Shown here in pieces: positions 626-49,812 of a DNA stretch of 55,513 nucleotides. Positions within the stretch are counted from its first letter, which is position 1, and each line of letters opens with the position of its first letter. The notes under the pieces are model-generated. The model searched no databases, had not been told where the DNA came from, and worked only from the letters and a program-made list of their open reading frames with translations. Position numbers and translations under genes: made by a program. Source of the stretch: Lacrimispora saccharolytica (GTDB lineage Bacteria; Bacillota; Clostridia; Lachnospirales; Lachnospiraceae); assembly GCA_016899975.1 (NCBI GenBank), contig JACJJN010000023.1, positions 1 to 55,513 of the forward strand. The letters are read 5' to 3'.

Positions 626-2908
626 TTATCCTAAATGCCAGATATCTTCATTGTACTGTTCAATCGTACGGTCTGAAGAGAAGAATCCCGCATTTGCGAT
701 ATTGATCAGGCACTTTTTGTTCCATGCGCTGCGGTTCTCATAATCTTTGTATACTTTCTCCTTCACCTGGATGTATTCTTTCAGGTCAAGCAGGGTCATG
801 AACCAGTCTTTGTTCAGGATCTCCTTGTACAGGCGCTCCAGGTTCAGACGGTCGCCGATTGCCAGCAGCTCGTCACTGACGATAAAGTCCACCAGTTTTG
901 CGATCTGAGGATCTTTGTCATAGATTGCCTTGGAGTTGTATCCTGCCTGCGGATCTTTTTTCTTTTCATCGTACAGATCGATGACATCCTGCGGTTTCTT
1001 TCCGAAGATATAGATGTTGTCGTCGCCTACCAGATCATGGATCTCCACATTCGCGCCGTCCTCGGTTCCCAGAGTCACTGCGCCGTTCAGCATAAATTTC
1101 ATGTTTCCGGTTCCGGACGCTTCCTTGGAAGCCAGGGAGATCTGCTCAGAGATATCCGCTGCCGGAATCACTTTCGCTGCCTTGGATACATTGTAGTTCT
1201 CCAGCATGATCACCTGGAAATACGGGCTTACCTCCGGATCGGAAGCGATCAGTTCCTGCAGGCAGAGGATCAGGTGGATGATATCCTTGGCGATCGTATA
1301 TGCCGGAGCTGCCTTTGCGCCGAAGATCATGGTGATCGGAGTTTTCGGTTTGTTTCCTGCCTTGATGTCCATGTATTTGTAGATTGCATACAAGGCATTC
1401 ATCTGCTGGCGTTTGTACTCGTGAAGACGTTTTACCTGTACGTCGAAGATTGCGTTCTCATCTACCGTCAGATTCTGGGTCTCATAGAGATATTTCTTCA
1501 GGGCTTTCTTGTTGTTCTTCTTGATCTCTTCCAGCTTTTTCAGCACTTTCGCGTCATTTTTGTATTTCAGAAGTTTTTCCAGCTCCATCGCGTTCTTCTT
1601 ATATCCGCTTCCGATCAGGCTCTCGATGTAATCCGCCAGCTCATGATTGCAGTGGATCAGCCAGCGGCGGAACGTAATACCGTTGGTCTTATTGTTGAAC
1701 TTCTCCGGATAGATATCATAGAACGGTTTCAGCTCGGAGTTTTTCAGGATCTCTGTGTGCAGCGCCGCCACACCATTGACAGAGAAACCGTAATGGATAT
1801 CCATATGTGCCATATGCACACGTCTGTCCTTGTCGATGATGGCAACTTCTTCCCCTTTATATTTGGCTTTCGCCCGGGCATCCAGCTCAAAGATGATCGG
1901 AAGCAGATGCGGAACCACCTCTTCCAGATAATCGATCGGCCATTTTTCCAGTGCTTCCGCAAGGATCGTATGGTTAGTGTACGCACAGGTCTTGCTGACT
2001 ACATGGATTGCCTCATCCAGAGTAAATCCTCTCTGCTGAAGCAGACGGATCAGTTCCGGGATTACCATGGACGGATGGGTATCGTTGATCTGGATCACCA
2101 CATGCTCATCCAGGTGATGCAGGTCATAGCCTTTCTCATCGCACTCCTTCAGGATCAGCTGTGCGCCGTTGCTGACCATGAAATACTGCTGGTAGATACG
2201 CAGAAGCTGTCCGGCGCGGTCACTGTCGTCCGGATACAGGAACAGGGTCAGGTTTTTCTGGATCTGATGCTTGTCAAAACCGATGCTGTCGCTCGGCACG
2301 ATCCCCTCATCCACCGTATCTACATCAAACAGATGCAGACGGTTGCATCCGGAATCATAACCCGGTACATCAATGTCATACAGCACAGAGTGCATCGTAA
2401 AATTCTTAAACGGCACCTGGAAGGATACCGGCTGCTTCACCAGCCAGCTCTCTGCGGTAAGCCATGGATTCTTCACCTCTTTCTGCTTGTTGTCCACAAA
2501 CATCTGGCGGAATAGTCCGAAATGGTAGTTCAGGCCGATACCGTCGCCCGGAAGTCCCAGGGTCGCAATGGAATCCAGAAAACATGCCGCCAGACGTCCC
2601 AGTCCGCCGTTGCCCAGAGACGGTTCCAACTCCATTTCCTCAATCTCTGTCAGATCTCTTCCGTGTTTTTTCAGCGCGTCCGCCACTTCATCGTACATGC
2701 CGAGATTGATCAGGTTGTTGGACAGCAGCTTTCCGATCAGGAACTCTGCGGAAATGTAATACAGTTTTTTCTTTCCTTCATTTCTCCTGCGGGAAGCCAT
2801 CTCCTGCTTGGTCAATACCATCAGCACTTCAAAGATCTCGCTCTTTGTGCAGTTGTCAATATCTCTTCCAAAACGTTCTTTTAAAAGGTTCTGAATTCTT
2901 TCTTCCAT
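626..2908 (-). CDS. glgP: Glycogen/alpha-glucan phosphorylase
   Basis: A 760-residue GT35 phosphorylase that releases glucose-1-phosphate from the non-reducing end of alpha-1,4-glucans, in the cytoplasm. Family landmarks include [15 protein letters not shown] near residue 100, and [15 protein letters not shown] near 600, whose lysine binds pyridoxal phosphate. The length is at the short end of the family. ATG follows a GGAGAAG ribosome site. It is the last gene of malQ-malR-glgP, 87 bp after malR. Together with MalQ it would degrade maltodextrins or glycogen. Glycogen and maltodextrin specificity cannot be separated from sequence alone. Confidence 0.95.
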
Positions 2909-2995
2909 CTCTTCTTCTCCTTTTCAGACTTTTTTGTTCAGCAATGGTCTTATAATAGTCTTATTCGTTAACAGTTCCGTTTTCTGATATTTTTG

Positions 2996-4024
2996 TTACT
3001 CTTTCGGCTTTCCGGTGGATTCCCGGATGACCAGTTCTCCGTCAAACACCTGCGCCGACGGTTCTTCCTTCCGGTCGATCATCGCAAACAGTTTTCTGGC
3101 GGACTCTGTCGCCATCGCTTCCACCGGCTGGCGGATGGTCGTGATGCTGGGAATATAATACTCCCCAACGTCAATTCCGTCAAATCCTGCCACGGAAATA
3201 TCTTCCGGCACACGTTTTCCCGCCTCCTTCAACGCCCGGCACGCGCCGATAGCAAGGGTATCCGATGTCGTATACAGAGCGGTAAAGTCAATGCCTTCCT
3301 CCAGCAGCTCCCGGGTCAGCTTGTATCCTGTCCCGAACGAATAATTGTCCTGGCGGGTCATATGGCGGACCAACAACGGGTCAAAGGGAATCTGCCGGTC
3401 CTCCAGTACCTTCCGGTACGCATCCAGCCTCAGGCGGCCGATACTGATATCGTCTTCACATGCCGCCAGGATCGCTATTTTTCTGTGTCCGCAGGAACAC
3501 AGGTAATCCACCATCTTATAACTTTCCCTGTAATCATCCACCGATACGCTGGCACAGGGAAGTTCTTCATTCTCCCGGATCCCGACGGTGGTGATCACAT
3601 AGGGCACCGGGATCTGCTCCAGTTTTTCTTTCGGATGGATGAAATTTCCGCCGAGAAAGATAATGCCCCGGAGCCGTTTTTCCTTGACGATCTCAATGGC
3701 CGCATCCACCTCGCTCGCCTTTTCCTCCACCCGCTCAATGATGCAGGAATACTTTTTCTTTCTTGCTTTCTCTTCCAGAATACTGATCATATTGTTGAAG
3801 AACATATTGTCCATACCTTTGACCAGCACCGCGATCGCCTTGGCATCGGAACGCTTCAGGTTGCGGGCGCTGTTGTTGGGCACGTAATTATATTCCGACA
3901 TGACCTTCAGGATCATTTCTTTTGTCTCCGGATTGATGTCCGGATGATTGTTCAGCGCGCGGGAAACGGTGCTTACCCCGACGCCGCATTTCTTTGCTAT
4001 ATCCCGGATCGTTATCTGCTCCAT
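2996..4024 (-). CDS. malR: LacI-family repressor, probable MalR
   Basis: A 342-residue LacI/GalR regulator. The N-terminal helix-turn-helix (TIRDIAKKCGVGVSTVSRAL, residues 5-24) is followed by the hinge helix and a periplasmic-binding-protein-like effector domain to the end. It sits between malQ and glgP with a 17-bp gap to malQ, so it very likely senses a maltodextrin-type sugar and represses its own operon. The palindromic operator array at the malQ promoter (5544-5579) is the obvious target. The family is certain; the ligand is inferred from neighbours. Confidence 0.85.
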   Translation of the reverse strand: MEQITIRDIAKKCGVGVSTVSRALNNHPDINPETKEMILKVMSEYNYVPNNSARNLKRSDAKAIAVLVKGMDNMFFNNMISILEEKARKKKYSCIIERVEEKASEVDAAIEIVKEKRLRGIIFLGGNFIHPKEKLEQIPVPYVITTVGIRENEELPCASVSVDDYRESYKMVDYLCSCGHRKIAILAACEDDISIGRLRLDAYRKVLEDRQIPFDPLLVRHMTRQDNYSFGTGYKLTRELLEEGIDFTALYTTSDTLAIGACRALKEAGKRVPEDISVAGFDGIDVGEYYIPSITTIRQPVEAMATESARKLFAMIDRKEEPSAQVFDGELVIRESTGKPKE

Positions 4025-31383: not shown

Positions 31384-33525
31384 TCACAGGATCATCGAAA
31401 GGGAAATTCTGTTCTTTTTCAGATCCACACCGATGACTTTCACCTCTACGATGTCACCCACATGAATGACATCCAGCGGATGTTTGATGAATTTTTTGTT
31501 GGTGATCTGGGAGATATGGACCAGTCCGTCCTGATGGACTCCGATATCCACAAACGCGCCGAAATCAATGACGTTGCGGACGGTACCTTTCAGTACCATT
31601 CCCTCTTTCAGATCTTTCATTTCCAGAACATCGGTACGAAGGATCGGTTTCGGCATTTCATCACGGGGATCTCGTCCCGGTTTTTTCAGTTCTTTTTCGA
31701 TATCTCTCAGCGTAATCTCTCCGATTCCCAGTTCTGCCGCCATCTTCTTATAATCCTGAATGAAGATGACTGCCGTTCCGTCCAGAATCTGTTCCGGCTT
31801 CATTCCCATTTTCTCCAGCAGCTTTCTCGCCGCCTCATAGCTTTCCGGGTGAACGCTGGTTGCATCCAGAGGGTCTTTTCCTCCGGTGATCCGCAGAAAT
31901 CCGGCACACTGTTCAAACGCCTTCGGTCCCAGCTTGGAAACCTTCATCAGTTCCTTTCTGCTCTGGAAACGTCCGTTTTCCTCCCGGTAAGCGACGATAT
32001 TTTTCGCGATTGCCTTTGAAATTCCGGAGATATATTCCAGCAGAGACGCGGAAGCTGTATTCAGGTCGACGCCGACTTTGTTGACCGAATCCTCCACGAC
32101 GCCTGTCAAAGCTTCGCCCAGTTTCTTCTGGTTCATATCATGCTGATACTGTCCCACACCGATGGACTTCGGATCGATCTTCACCAGTTCCGCCAGCGGA
32201 TCCTGCACTCTTCTTGCAATGGATGCCGCGCTTCTCTGTCCCACGTCAAAATTCGGAAATTCTTCCGTCGCCAGTTTGCTGGCGGAATAGACAGAAGCAC
32301 CCGCTTCATTGGTGATCACATAAGAAACCTTCTCCGGAATTTCTTTCAGGATCTCCACGATGATCTGTTCGGATTCCCGGCATGCGGTTCCATTTCCCAC
32401 AGAAATCAGCGTCACTCCGTAAGTATGGATCAGTTCTTTGACTTTGTCCTTTGCCGCCTGGATCTTCCTCTCATTGGTCGGAGCGGTCGGATATACGACA
32501 GCGGTATCCAACACCTTTCCGGTCTCATCCACAACCGCCAGCTTGCATCCCGTACGGAACGCCGGATCCCATCCAAGCACCACCTGCCCCGCAATCGGCG
32601 GCTGCAGAAGCAGCTGTTCCAGATTCTTTCCAAAGACGCGGATCGACGAATCCTCCGCCTTTTCCGTCAGCTCGCTTCGCACCTCACGCTCGATGGCAGG
32701 CGCGATCAGACGGTTATAGGCATCAGCGATCGTCGCCCTGAGCACTGGTGTGGTATACGGATTTTCCGTTTTGATGATCTGCTTTTCCAGATACCGGAGG
32801 ATCTCCTCCACCGGCGCTTCAATCTTGACCGTCAGGAATTTCTCCTTTTCCCCGCGGTTCAGAGCCAGGACACGGTGGGAAGCGATCTGTGAAACCGGCT
32901 CGGACGCATCGTAATATTTCTCGTAGACAGAGGAAGCATTTTCATCCCTCGCAGAGGATACGATCTGGCCTTTCTTCATCGTCCGCTTACGGATTTCCAT
33001 CCGGTAATCTGCTTCATCGGAAATCATTTCCGCCAGGATATCACAGGCTCCTGCCAGCGCTTCCTGCACCGTAGTAACCTCTTTTTCCTCGGAAAGATAC
33101 GGTTCCGCCAGTTTTTCCAGCGGCTCTTTTGCCTCCTGCGCCAGGATTGCCTGTGCCAGCGGTTCCAGTCCTTTCTCCTTCGCAATGGTAGCGCGGGTAC
33201 GCCGTTTCGGACGGTACGGGCGGTAAAGATCCTCAACGACCACAAGGGTCTGCGCAGCCTGAATCGACGCTTTCAGTTCTTCCGTCAGCTTGCCCTGATC
33301 TTCAATACTGGAAAGCACCTGTTTTTTCCGGTCTTCCAGATTACGCAGGTAAGTCAGACGTTCCGACAGCGCACGCAGCACTTCGTCGTTGAGCGATCCC
33401 GTCATTTCTTTCCGGTAACGGGCAATAAACGGAATGGTATTGCCCTCATCGATCAGTTTTACTGCAGCATCCACCTGTTCTTCACGAACGTTCAGCTCTT
33501 CTGCCAGTACCTTATTTATATTCAT
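31384..33525 (-). CDS. tex: Tex-type RNA-binding transcription accessory protein
   Basis: A 713-residue Tex protein. It has an N-terminal helical region, a YqgF-like RNase H fold domain (about 310-450; GWDPAFRTGCKLAVVDETG), helix-hairpin-helix repeats (about 490-560; LEYISGISKAIAKNIV), and a C-terminal S1 domain (about 635-710; GMVLKGTVRNVIDFGAFVDI). Tex acts in transcription or RNA metabolism. ATG 33525 is 10 nt after AGGAGG; the frame extends 21 codons further without a site. Confidence 0.96.
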   Translation of the reverse strand: MNINKVLAEELNVREEQVDAAVKLIDEGNTIPFIARYRKEMTGSLNDEVLRALSERLTYLRNLEDRKKQVLSSIEDQGKLTEELKASIQAAQTLVVVEDLYRPYRPKRRTRATIAKEKGLEPLAQAILAQEAKEPLEKLAEPYLSEEKEVTTVQEALAGACDILAEMISDEADYRMEIRKRTMKKGQIVSSARDENASSVYEKYYDASEPVSQIASHRVLALNRGEKEKFLTVKIEAPVEEILRYLEKQIIKTENPYTTPVLRATIADAYNRLIAPAIEREVRSELTEKAEDSSIRVFGKNLEQLLLQPPIAGQVVLGWDPAFRTGCKLAVVDETGKVLDTAVVYPTAPTNERKIQAAKDKVKELIHTYGVTLISVGNGTACRESEQIIVEILKEIPEKVSYVITNEAGASVYSASKLATEEFPNFDVGQRSAASIARRVQDPLAELVKIDPKSIGVGQYQHDMNQKKLGEALTGVVEDSVNKVGVDLNTASASLLEYISGISKAIAKNIVAYREENGRFQSRKELMKVSKLGPKAFEQCAGFLRITGGKDPLDATSVHPESYEAARKLLEKMGMKPEQILDGTAVIFIQDYKKMAAELGIGEITLRDIEKELKKPGRDPRDEMPKPILRTDVLEMKDLKEGMVLKGTVRNVIDFGAFVDIGVHQDGLVHISQITNKKFIKHPLDVIHVGDIVEVKVIGVDLKKNRISLSMIL

Positions 33526-45513: not shown

Positions 45514-48084
45514 TTAAACCCTAACACGTCCGCAGCATTGTTTGTATTTCTTTCCGCTTCCGCATGGGCATGGGTCGTTCGGATATATTTTCTTTTCGGC
45601 GCGCTGTACCGGTTTTTTCGGTCCTGTCTCGTCTTTGTTGGTTCCGGTTACTTTAGCCACCTGTTCACGCTCTACTTTCTGTTCGATGCGTACGTGATAC
45701 AGCAGACGCAGGGTATCCTGCTGGATGGATGCCAGCATCTCATTGAACATATCGTAGGCCGTCATCTTGTACTCTACTTTCGGGTTTCTCTGACCATAAG
45801 CCTGCAGGCCGATTCCTTCGCGGAGCTGATCCATATCGTCGATATGATCCATCCATTTCTGGTCGATGACTTTCAGCAGAAGCACACGTTCCAGTTCACG
45901 GATCTGCTCGATTTCCGGAAATTCTGCTTCTTTTTCTTCATACAGTTTCACAGCCTCTTCTTTCAGATGCTGTTTCAGCTGATTTTTGCTCATTTTCCGT
46001 ACATCTTCCCGCTGAATCACTTTCACCGGGATCACAGGGATCAGCACTTCGTTCAGCTCTGTCAGGTTCCAGTCTTCCGGATCTGCATTTTCGCCAATGC
46101 ACAGATCCACGACATTGTCGATGGTATCTGTGATCATCTTGAAGATGGAATCACGCATACTCTCTCCGTCGAGAACACGGCGGCGCTCTTTGTAAATAAT
46201 CTCACGCTGCTCGTTGTTTACCTGATCGTACTCCAGCAGGTTCTTACGGATTCCGTAGTTATTTCCCTCAATCTTTCTCTGTGCCTTTTCAATTGCGGAG
46301 GAAAGCATCTTATGCTCGATCTGTTCATTCTCCGGAACACCAAGAGACTTGAATACCGTCATCAGTTTTTCAGAACCGAACAGACGCATCAGATCGTCTT
46401 CCAGAGAGATATAGAAACGGGATTCACCCGGATCTCCCTGACGTCCGGAACGTCCGCGGAGCTGATTGTCAATACGGCGGGACTCATGACGCTCTGTACC
46501 GATGATCTTCAGACCGCCGGCTTCTTTCGCCACATCGTCCAGCTTGATATCGGTACCACGTCCTGCCATGTTGGTGGCAATGGTTACGGTGCCAGCCTCA
46601 CCCGCATGGGCAACGATCTCCGCCTCCAGCTCATGGAATTTCGCGTTCAGCACCTGATGCTTGATTCCCTCTTTCTTCAGCATCCGGCTGAGCAGTTCAG
46701 AGGTTTCGATGGTTACGGTACCTACCAGTACCGGCTGATTTTTCGCATGCGCTTCCTTGACCGCTTCCACAACCGCATGGAATTTCTCTTTCTGGGTCAT
46801 ATATACCGCGTCTTCCAGATCCTTACGGATCACCGGACGGTTGGTCGGGATCTCGATAACGTCCATTCCATAGATATCACGGAATTCCTGCTCTTCTGTC
46901 AGAGCGGTACCGGTCATACCTGCTTTCTTCTCATACTTATTGAAGAAGTTCTGGAACGTGATCGTCGCCAGCGTCTTGCTCTCCCGGCGTACCTTTACAT
47001 GCTCCTTCGCCTCGATCGCCTGATGCAATCCGTCGGAATAACGGCGTCCCGGCATGATACGTCCGGTAAACTCATCGACGATCAGAACCTCATCGTCTTT
47101 TACCACATAATCCTTATCCCGGAACATCAGGTAGTTGGCACGCAGCGCAAGAATGATATTGTGCTGGATCTCCATGTTCTCCGGATCGGAAAGGTTTTCA
47201 ATATGGAAGAATTCCTCTACTTTATGAACACCCTGTTCCGTCAGGGTTACAATCTTATCTTTTTCGTTGACAATAAAGTCTCCGGTCTCCACGATCTCTT
47301 CGCCCATGATCGCGGTCATCTTGGTCATCTCCGCGCTGGCCTCCCCGCGTTCCATCTGATGCGCCAGGATATCACAGGTCTCATAAAGTTTTGTGGATTT
47401 TCCGCTCTGTCCGGAAATGATCAGCGGCGTACGCGCCTCATCGATCAGGACAGAGTCGACCTCGTCAATGATACAGTAGCAAAGATCTCTCTGTACCAGC
47501 TGTTCTTTATAAATCACCATGTTGTCACGAAGGTAGTCAAAGCCCAGTTCGTTATTGGTGATATAAGTGATGTCGCAGGCATACTGCTTGCGGCGCTCAT
47601 CATTTTTCATATCATTCAGCACGACACCGACAGTAAGTCCCAGAAATTCATGGACTTTTCCCATCCATTCGGCATCTCGGTTAGCCAGATAATCATTGAC
47701 CGTAACGATATGAACGCCGCGTCCGGTCAGCGCATTCAGATATGCAGGCAGAGTGGATACCAGCGTCTTACCTTCACCAGTCTTCATCTCCGCGATACGT
47801 CCCTGGTGAAGAATAATTCCACCAATCAGCTGTACCCGGTAATGTTCCATCCCCAGCACACGCTTTGCTGCCTCGCGTACGGTGGCAAATGCTTCCGGAA
47901 GGAGGGAATCCAGCGTCTCACCTTTTTGATAACGTTCTTTGTATTCTTTTGTCTTTGCACGAAGCTCCTCATCTGAGAGTTTCTGCATCTCGGGGCGCAG
48001 CGCCTCGATCTTATCTACGATCGGCGTGATTCTCTTCAGCTCTCTGGAGCTGTGGGTGCCGAAAAGCTTTTCCGCTACTTTCAT
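45514..48084 (-). CDS. secA: Preprotein translocase ATPase SecA
   Basis: An 856-residue motor of the Sec pathway at the membrane. [20 protein letters not shown] (about residue 100) is Walker A, and [20 protein letters not shown] (about 205) is Walker [14 protein letters not shown] and [12 protein letters not shown] are helicase motifs of the second nucleotide domain. The C-terminus carries [17 protein letters not shown], the zinc motif that contacts ribosomes and SecB-like partners. GGAG precedes the ATG. It lies upstream of prfB, separated by three palindromes. Confidence 0.98.
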
Positions 48085-48162: not shown

Positions 48163-48215
48163 TGAATTTTTCGTGAATAAAGTATGTCGGCAGATCCGTT
48201 CCGTCTTTATTGGGT

Positions 48216-48484
48216 AAGCGGACGAAAAAATCCCTGCGCGGGTGGCATCCGTGGACGGGGCGGCTGAAAAGCGCCGGAAAATCTAACCGTCCCGGAACCG
48301 TCCGGACCGGGTACCGGAGCGATTCATCAGGAATTGTTTATCAATTCCCGGTTCAGCGCTCCTCAGGCTCAGTGCGAGAAGCACTTCGCCTGCCCCGGTC
48401 CGAACGGCTCCGGGACGCTAAGATTTTCTCGACGCTTTTCAGATGCCCCGTACACGGATGCCGCCCGCGCAGGGATTTTTTCTG
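48216..48484 (-). repeat. ~270-bp structured palindromic element, copy 1
   Basis: Read on the minus strand it runs from CAGAAAAAATCCCTGCGCGG to TTTTTTCGTCCGCTT and folds into one long interrupted hairpin. The basal arm is AATCCCTGCGCGGG with its complement, then AAAAGCGTCG/CGGCGCTTTT, then GTCCCGGA/TCCGGGAC. A side hairpin CAGGC-GA-AGTGC-TTCTC-GCACT-GA-GCCTG follows, then GGAGCG/CGCTCC, capped by GGGAATTG-ATAAA-CAATTCC. The second copy at 48604-48876 has the same architecture. No coding frame is convincing. It could be a mobile palindrome or a structured RNA. Confidence 0.8.
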
Positions 48485-48603
48485 TTTTCTGATACCGAAA
48501 AGTACGGAACGGATGTACCGGTTGTAAGGTGTGAAGCTCGGATATAATCGAATCCAACAACTACACCATCCCCTGCAGCTTATGACGCTCCGGAATTCAA
48601 GCC
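48485..48603. other. Spacer between the two structured elements
   Basis: 119 bp separating the divergently oriented copies. It contains a plus-strand TATAAT (48543-48548) with TTGTAA 15 bp upstream (48522-48527), a possible but sub-optimal promoter that would fire into copy 2. No gene is seen. Confidence 0.4.
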
Positions 48604-48876
48604 CAGAAAGCATCCAGGGTCAGGTGGTATGCGTGGACGGCGGGCATCTGAAAAGATGTGAGAAAATCTTGGCGTTCCGAAGCCCCGGAGGACGGGGCAG
48701 GCGAAGTGCTTCTCGCACTGAGCCTGAGGAGCGCTGAGTCGGGAAAGCATAAAGCTTTCCTGACGAATCGCTCCGGTACCCGTCCGAAGGGGCTTCGGAA
48801 CGGTTAGATTTTCCACATCTTTTCAGCCGCCCGCCGTCCACGCATACCACCTGGCCCTGGATGCTTTCGTCCGCTT
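48604..48876 (+). repeat. ~270-bp structured palindromic element, copy 2
   Basis: Opposite in orientation to copy 1, from CAGAAAGCATCCAGGG to GGATGCTTTCGTCCGCTT. The arms have different sequence but remain complementary: GGTGGTATGCGTGGACGG/CCGTCCACGCATACCACC, AAAAGATGTG/CACATCTTTT, GTTCCGAAGCCCC/GGGGCTTCGGAAC and GGGAAAGC-ATAAA-GCTTTCC. The core from GGGGCAGGCGAAGTGC to GAGGAGCGCTGA (44 nt, about 48694-48737) is identical to copy 1. The side hairpin has GA/GA opposed in an internal loop. The remainder to 48900 shows nothing else. Confidence 0.8.
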
Positions 48877-48902
48877 TGCCACCAAAACTCATAACTGCAT
48901 TC

Positions 48903-48948: not shown

Positions 48949-49623
48949 TTATGTTGGAATTTCCCGTTTCTTTTTTCTTGATGCCAGCGAAACACTTCTG
49001 ACTTTGTGAGGATGATACAACAGCATGTAGCTTCCAAGATTCATGATCAGCGCACAGCATACATCCGATACGGAATGCTGTTTCAGGAACATGGTGGCAA
49101 GTACGATGGACACTGCCAGCGCTACTGTGCTGTAGCGGATCACTGGGTGTTTCTGGAGGCGTTTGCAGGTCATGAACGCGATGCCTACCGCCACGGAATT
49201 GTATACGTGGATGCTTGGAAAGACGTTCGTCGGCGTATCGATGGAATACAGATACTGTACCATCTGCGTGAAGACATTGTCATTTGCAAAGGTCTCCGGC
49301 CGTAAATCCTGTCCGTTGGGGTAAATGTAGGAGATGATCAGAAACAGGGTCATCCCGATCCCGAGGTTAAAAATCAGCTGGTAATATTCTTTGAGATCTT
49401 TATTGAAAAATCCAAAATAAATCAGTGCAGCAGCGATAAACGCAAACCACAGGAAATATGGCACAATAAAGTATTCACAAAAAGGAATGATGTCGTCCAG
49501 CGGCATATGAATAATATGGTAATCATTGGTTACCTTATGCTCCAGCCAGAAGAAACCCAGCAGATAAAATACCGCGTATGCCGGAATGATCAATATATGC
49601 TTATATTTTTTCAGAAGTTTCAT
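48949..49623 (-). CDS. PAP2-superfamily membrane phosphatase (inositolphosphotransferase-like)
   Basis: A 224-residue protein with about six membrane helices. The PAP2 motifs are reduced but present: NVFPSIHVYNSVAVGIAF (about 132-149) has the PSxH histidine, and LKQHSVSDV (about 180-188) the final His and Asp. There is no classical KxxxxxxRP motif. It resembles PAP2-type lipid phosphatases or inositolphosphotransferases. ATG 49623 follows GAGGTGAGGCGG; a longer frame begins 24 codons earlier without a site. It is transcribed alone. Confidence 0.8.
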   Translation of the reverse strand: MKLLKKYKHILIIPAYAVFYLLGFFWLEHKVTNDYHIIHMPLDDIIPFCEYFIVPYFLWFAFIAAALIYFGFFNKDLKEYYQLIFNLGIGMTLFLIISYIYPNGQDLRPETFANDNVFTQMVQYLYSIDTPTNVFPSIHVYNSVAVGIAFMTCKRLQKHPVIRYSTVALAVSIVLATMFLKQHSVSDVCCALIMNLGSYMLLYHPHKVRSVSLASRKKKREIPT

Positions 49624-49812
49624 CTCCGCCTCACCTCGTTTTCCATGTCTGTCACTTTTCTTTGATGTTTTTCTTAACTGCTGTAAGTATAACACAACAA
49701 CATTTCAAGTCAATGACCTTTACCTCTTTTTAAGAAAACCTTCATTTAATTCATCATTCTTCTATACAAACTAAAAAATTCTTAAGAAAAAATGTGCAGT
49801 TCCACGAAACAG

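Follow-up and report, generated by a model that had tools for sequence, protein, structure and literature searches.

Inverted forked hairpins beside secA in Lacrimispora saccharolytica belong to a dispersed family of large palindromic repeats

Introduction

Next to secA in Lacrimispora saccharolytica lie two long, imperfect palindromes of shared architecture, and the locus raises the question of what keeps the arms of such structures complementary: selection on a folded RNA, or the correction of one arm against the other in a mobile palindrome. Both answers had been offered by a sequence-only reading of the window (here the whole stretch of DNA that was analysed, 55,513 nucleotides), which claimed two divergent structured copies at 48216–48876 with apparent base-pair covariation, and which held that a local inverted duplication would be left if there were no further copies, no covariation beyond simple palindrome correction and no transcript. 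Both further copies and covariation were found.

Results

Two hairpins form one unit

The two structured copies are present as hairpin 1 (48224–48482, minus strand, arm type AAATCCCTGCGCGGG) and hairpin 2 (48606–48868, plus strand, arm type GCATCCAGGGTCAGG), each a forked rod delimited by arm complementarity and fold. They are divergent and real, as had been claimed, but they turn out to be the (−,+) halves of a single unit (48188–48886, no strand assigned), defined by the repeats I1–I7 and by (−,+) twins in other genomes. Between the hairpins, whose left ends point inward, sequence and repeat search place a spacer (48483–48605, no strand assigned), and the unit closes in inverted outer ends, the left (48206–48258, including ..AAGCGGACGAAA..) being 75% complementary to the right (48834–48886, including ..TTTCGTCCGCTTT..) as repeat I4, neither with an assigned strand. 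Repeat searches further showed that the arms of hairpin 1 (48224–48281 and 48425–48482) are 88% complementary and those of hairpin 2 (48606–48665 and 48809–48868) 92%, and that the two hairpins make up a 191-nt inverted repeat (81%). The unit is flanked by secA (45514–48084, minus strand) and by a gene for a PAP2-like membrane protein (48949–49695, minus strand), both assigned with Pfam.

Folded as RNA, hairpin 1 reaches −204.9 kcal/mol (z −19.3) and hairpin 2 −220.2 kcal/mol (z −21.5), values that none of 200 shuffles equalled in either case, and each fold is one rod whose three-way junction bears a side and an apical hairpin. In hairpin 2 (plus strand) the side hairpin of the junction, with its tandem G·A mismatches, occupies 48698–48726, and the apical hairpin 48728–48774, with CTGA (48734–48737) facing GAAT (48765–48768) in an internal loop and ATAAA (48749–48753) at the tip; the apical hairpin is marked out by CT-GA and GAAT, nearly invariant in the 38 aligned copies described below. 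The side hairpin AGTGC-TTCTC-GCACT with opposed GA, described beforehand, was found in both window copies. So was their identical core, at 45 nt by our reading instead of 44, and the ATAAA loop is likewise kept in the window copies, other copies carrying mostly AT(A/C)A.

A dispersed family in Lachnospiraceae

Many copies in the window’s own genome (G000) were detected by BLAST. A covariance model, R1, was built from 33 copies of similar length from four genomes of the genus (G000, G001, G003 and G005), with both window hairpins among the building sequences; its conserved 152-nt region lies at 48277–48428 in hairpin 1 (minus strand; 158.5 bits, E 2.9e-33) and at 48662–48813 in hairpin 2 (plus strand; 173 bits, E 1.2e-36). 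The covariance-model search, which the sequence-only reading had proposed, returned 25 full-length own-genome copies of at least 100 bits and five partial or interrupted places, 23 of the 55 R1 rows in this genome being opposite-strand echoes. To control for specificity, R1 was run on 89,865 bases surrounding 30 transposase genes, where nothing matched at E 0.1.

Beyond the own genome, matches occurred in at least 15 of 299 sampled genomes of the family Lachnospiraceae, in 14 genera, with no more than 10 candidates scored in each. A search of 391 genomes of the class with the cross-genus covariance model R2 matched the own genome alone, and the other Lachnospiraceae genomes within that draw were also without a match, seven candidates having been scored in each, so that weak or rare copies may escape. 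Four near-complete single-contig genomes (G115, G261, G076 and G065) were used for closer counts and yielded 59 hits, the counts per genome being 28, 12, 5 and 14 hairpins. All eight stretches matching an exact head pattern in a named genome collection came from two Fusicatenibacter assemblies, by which the genus would probably be Fusicatenibacter. These family counts rest on capped first-look scoring, on draft assemblies possibly broken at hairpins and on one genome per species. One own-genome copy lies near a contig end (G000:C201:187).

Neither the 50,697 phage records nor the 72,556 plasmid records searched contained a match to the window unit, and viral contigs lacked all three of the exact head patterns tried; both searches worked at the DNA level and would miss copies with other stem sequences. 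In agreement with the earlier failure to recognise an RNA family, no Rfam family reached its gathering score in the region, and the lowest E value of a permissive search was 1.9, with scores far below gathering. No description of the family was found in the literature searched, which left subscription journals mostly outside, and we provisionally regard it as a large and apparently undescribed repeat family.

The fork is constant while the stems change

For 38 copies from 15 genomes we built an alignment (A4) fitted to the 58 pairs of R1; its rows are related, and its pair counts lean towards the R1 structure because of the fitting. Standard pairs filled 95.8% of the 2181 pair cells, compared with 39–47% when partners were slid and 54.9% in shuffles, and the covariation score was 1.035 against 0.227 in shuffles, none of 500 being as high. 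Changes on both sides were seen at 57 of the 58 pairs (35–41 when slid), a count that says less by itself since shuffles average 52.4, and 182 further pair types were present, a number reached by five of 500 shuffles. The base-pair covariation first suspected from two copies thus holds in 15 genomes and is not chance. The forked shape stays constant while almost every stem base is replaced, a pattern suggestive of a reader that recognises the fold.

Near-constant unpaired parts of A4 are GGT at the junction, CTGA opposite GAAT in the lowest part of the apical hairpin and a loop of the AT(A/C)A type; by reading, a T·T mismatch often lies ~28 nt below the fork, and the model length of ~150 nt persists across 14 genera. 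In 13 close own-genome copies the letters of GA/GA, CTGA/GAAT and GGT were 92–100% conserved (GA/GA 100%), the tandem GA of the side hairpin in this genus corresponding to ordinary pairs in several other genera. Over all columns of the same 13 copies, unpaired positions were no more conserved (0.892) than paired ones (0.885). Selection on the folded shape is indicated by the near-invariant unpaired motifs and the constant geometry, which are silent on whether RNA or DNA is read.

Outside the head the hairpins vary, from 263 nt in the own genome up to more than 400 nt in others. In five loci (L035, L039, L041, L014 at 2800–3211, and L084) the arms match far past the usual base, giving hairpins of at least 340 nt whose outer arm sequence is unlike that of other copies. 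Two hairpins of ~80–90 nt (G000:C133:14902–14978 and G000:C128:28058–28149) match the outer stem alone without the forked head, and are either deletion derivatives or a separate short repeat. A second palindrome of ~160 nt sits inside the side hairpin in L043 (G000:C33, ~73682–74106) and L048 (G000:C96, ~31946–32276), with ends TAGAGCGTG...CACGCTCTA and TA on both flanks; it presumably resembles an IS630-type miniature element, and a similar palindrome adjoins the hairpin in L082 (G177). Nested insertion as a general source of the differing outer arms was judged unlikely by reading, because the arms vary gradually, with compensation, between subfamilies.

Twin units tend to sit at the ends of genes

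Neighbouring hairpins in (−,+) order with left ends facing occur in the window, in loci of five other genera and in a sixth genus (G076). In the four near-complete genomes all 14 of the 14 neighbours less than 600 bp apart are (−,+): G115 accounts for nine of them, G076 for three, G261 for two and G065 for none. Solo hairpins are also common in these genomes and in the own genome. The G115 unit measures ~750–810 bp, with outer inverted repeats (~25–30 bp by reading) and two different hairpins, and the G065 unit ~440–480 bp, with a 19-bp inverted repeat; the terminal repeats of the two are wholly different, and the hairpin head is the conserved part. In the own genome GTCC immediately follows the TTTC-type stem end in 22 of 26 listed copies, counted by reading. 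Two loci have genes between the twin hairpins, like cargo, identified by reading as acetyltransferase-like (L014, 1720–2830) and P-loop kinase-like (L053, 1830–2650).

The position beside the secA promoter, noted earlier, holds for the window unit and is not general: among 57 loci, the right-hand gene turns its 3′ end towards the element in 42, made up of 11 of the 19 own-genome loci and 31 of the 38 in other genomes, as counted on long ORFs, not gene-caller models, with ORFs overlapping the core dropped beforehand. Open frames of at least 200 codons cross the core in four of 58 loci, as GC-rich hairpins can give. The fit is closest in G115, where the right gene’s stop codon lies 0–1 nt from the terminal repeat in seven of the eight units whose end was found and in four of six units the left gene’s stop reaches into the start of the repeat, neither end having been found by pattern in two of 10 loci. 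The flanks are ordinary, no Pfam family occurring in more than three of 110 flanking proteins, a result that ruled out the Rpn-like gene at some G065 unit ends as a shared flank. In three loci of G065 (L125, L129 at 2968, and L124) units directly adjoin the stop codon of a gene with the ending ..KKYW, by reading Rpn-family-nuclease-like.

The close fit to stop codons in G115 would suit giant transcription terminators acting in both directions, which spread together with ordinary terminators or take their place and are selected for termination, and in four of 20 own-genome copies the flanking inverted repeats indeed reach or exceed the 95th percentile of cross-copy controls; yet the other 16 have no strong flanking inverted repeat, a gene start, not a 3′ end, faces eight of the 19 right ends in the own genome, and neither a forked head nor constant spacing is required for termination, which makes this explanation very unlikely in our judgement. 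Insertion of the elements into terminator loops, an idea that the same four copies would fit, was set aside.

Both arms tend to change together

Pair-by-pair selection on a folded RNA is expected to favour G-U as an intermediate and to make double transitions dominate. We compared 21 own-genome copies, using a pairing map from one copy and copy pairs that are not independent. The nine closest pairs (8–12% apart) showed 75 double and 43 single paired changes; 48 of the doubles were transversions and 27 transitions, and the singles comprised 23 G·T, 13 A·C and seven others, a lean of G·T over A·C of about 2:1. The share of doubles was 66–71% at 12–22% divergence and 46–55% beyond 22%, where many other mismatches were present, and adjacent double changes were moderately clustered (141 versus 118 ± 6.6 expected). 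In the cross-genus core the ratio of G·T to A·C was 54:27 (2.5% and 1.2%), compared with 49:4 in 832 stem pairs (5.9% G·T) of 38 distinct tRNAs from the fetched loci, mismatched positions counted (Fisher p ~6e-4, with cells that are not independent). The outer arms of 66 hairpins gave 141:224, part of the A·C excess being one conserved AT/CC loop.

Since most arm changes are simultaneous and the G-U preference is weaker than in tRNAs, copying of hairpins at the DNA level fits better than stepwise RNA compensation, so far as sequence comparison can tell. Template switching has been reported to give rise to hairpins and to preserve them, RNA hairpin genes included (PMC8794818, in the part available to us); it would hide the G-U step in RNA genes too, so an RNA function is still compatible with these changes, and the ~2:1 lean towards G·T in singles and core remains evidence on the RNA side.

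If a structured RNA is under selection, it would be a transcribed forked hairpin, either a small RNA read from the spacer outward or part of a 3′ UTR, whose head binds protein or RNA. Such an RNA would explain the near-invariant CTGA/GAAT, AT.A loop and junction GGT, and would be in keeping with the fixed geometry of ~150 nt in 14 genera, the strong covariation of A4 and the preference for gene 3′ ends, whereas the mainly transversional double changes, close copies included, and outer arms free of G·T preference are not what it predicts. The G·T excess cuts both ways, being present in the core and in own-genome singles but falling well behind the tRNAs, and the strand symmetry of the twin and the lack of an Rfam match count against an RNA as well; we consider this explanation possible but doubtful.

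That the arms co-change as template switching predicts, a process reported to make and keep hairpins (PMC8794818, same part), would also suit a functionless local inverted duplication or mutational palindrome, perfect through template switching alone. However, correction alone would erase mismatches and would not conserve unpaired motifs and their spacing in 14 genera, and the term local duplication does not fit a family that is dispersed and has a presence/absence site. The functionless palindrome thus appears largely refuted, and we leave it a very faint chance.

One empty site and no partner enzyme found

The joined flanks of four G115 units were compared in four genomes of the G115 genus. 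At one site the genes are 751 bp apart in G115 and 20, 44 and 39 bp apart in three sister species, a difference which shows that the unit itself was gained or lost. The second site has a 76-nt remnant-like stretch in one species and an 829-bp palindromic region in another, and at the remaining two sites the three sister species carry palindromic DNA of 421–1118 bp that separates the same genes; these other sites would represent turnover of giant palindromes, their relation to the family being uncertain. The sister palindromes at two G115 sites could not be supported as family members, R2 giving no hits in 15 loci at E 0.1, and they may be old, decayed or different elements. They share blocks of 50–80 nt (77–87% identity) with G115 units, mostly with the left hairpin, and the giant ones (L224, L225, L226, L228, L229, L230 and L236, 421–1118 bp) are possibly a second family or derivatives without the apical hairpin. 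The runs of N within the palindromic regions of L225 and L228 (G706) would fit masking, or gaps in the assembly, where hairpins are long.

Target duplications, which the sequence-only reading had suggested looking for, were not visible at the ends read, with one clean empty site available. An empty site at the secA locus was sought in G003 and G005 and not found; the locus is uninformative because in both genomes secA and the PAP2 gene are separated by other genes. Among the 21 own-genome copies compared, even the closest differ by 8.7%, so there is no sign of recent movement in that genome.

As to a partner enzyme, Y1_Tnp was absent from five of 18 carrier genomes and present in nine of 16 others, and the hairpin was missing from all 30 Y1 loci fetched, 19 of which come from carriers; on these counts a Y1_Tnp/RAYT partner was rejected as a present-day requirement. 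A gene-bearing full-length element was sought through the terminal repeats of G065, and by reading the 7.4-kb span recovered holds ordinary sugar-metabolism genes, so that its ends probably belong to two separate elements.

A mobile element with terminal forked hairpins might instead be copied by hairpin priming, each round recopying one arm, by analogy with parvoviral rolling-hairpin ends. Two inverted forked hairpins per twin unit, simultaneous double changes, mismatches conserved within a long stem and the genes between hairpins in L014 and L053 would all follow from this, but no Rep-like gene was present in the few spacers read (L014, L053 and L080, with unrelated genes or no long ORF), the phage, plasmid and viral-contig searches described above found neither the window unit nor the exact head patterns, and solo hairpins are common. 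We consider copying of this kind quite unlikely.

Discussion

Between the two answers with which we started, a mobile palindrome with mutually corrected arms is the better supported, because the family is dispersed and multi-copy, a unit is present or absent at one orthologous site and double changes are mostly simultaneous; a structured RNA is not established by the evidence. Our preferred explanation, to which we give about an even chance, is that the window contains one unit of a family of giant, branched, non-autonomous mobile DNA elements resembling REP, BIME and REPIN, recognised as folded DNA by a putative enzyme acting in trans. It brings together the dispersed family, the (−,+) twin, the conserved fold and motifs, the gene 3′ end preference, the one empty site and the co-changing arms.

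Under this REP-like explanation the fold would form in single-stranded or cruciform DNA, where the putative enzyme, supplied in trans, would recognise it and spread the unit. Template-switch or hairpin-templated DNA synthesis would keep the arms complementary, and selection would shield the unpaired motifs from being lost to this correction of the arms. Transcription of the neighbouring genes probably also stops at the hairpins, as a by-product. A bolder proposal, which we think unlikely, is a new class of mobile element with inverted forked hairpins at its bounds, in which hairpin-primed copying would rewrite one arm per round, leaving the head as the recognition structure and the stem nearly free.

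The family offers an unusually clean case for asking whether hairpin pairing is kept by RNA selection or by DNA template switching, and it indicates that covariation alone, even as strong as here, is no proof of RNA. It implies a putative protein or machine that reads the fork, and it would extend extragenic palindromes, described as 20–40 bp, to giant branched forms in common gut anaerobes.

The REP, BIME and REPIN sequences (GTAG- and CGTC-tagged) are described, in the part of PMC3733652 available to us, as multi-copy extragenic palindromes of 20–40 bp, possibly mobile, with unpaired tails, which form opposite-orientation dimers and lie mostly downstream of genes or between convergent genes; in its main text, to the same extent, the words Firmicutes and Clostridi occur zero times. 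Compared with that description, the present hairpins, at 263 to more than 400 nt, are about ten times larger, and the tails of the own genus (CCA-like at the 5′ side, GTCC at the 3′ side) come in swapped order relative to CGTC...CCA. The likeness lies in a multi-copy family (25 full-length copies in the own genome) of gene-free hairpins with opposite-orientation dimers and a preference for gene 3′ ends, the window unit itself lying between secA and the PAP2-like gene, whereas the forked head and fixed geometry set the family apart, as does the failure to find a RAYT partner. No GTAG or CGTC tag marks the defined end of the hairpins, and those copies of G115 and G065 that were read showed no CCA-like or GTCC tails.

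Miniature elements (MITEs) derived from DDE transposons are short and gene-free and have terminal inverted repeats. Terminal inverted repeats are shared by the present family (19 bp in G065, ~25–30 bp in G115 and, in the own twin, ends that are 75% complementary), but no target duplication was visible at the ends read, no autonomous partner was found, and the terminal repeats differ between G065 and G115 while the internal head is conserved. Parvoviral terminal repeats fold into two T- or Y-shaped hairpins in inverted arrangement, each of which carries two small arms on a long stem whose mismatches are conserved. The family has each of these traits, an inverted pair of forked hairpins, a long stem, two small arms and conserved mismatches, but it lies on chromosomal contigs, with no Rep gene seen in the spacers read and no virus or plasmid match. 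Integron attC sites are recombination sites conserved as a folded single strand and not by sequence. Although the present hairpins are much larger and, in the loci read, do not lie in cassette arrays, they share with attC a shape that is conserved while the sequence of the stem is not.
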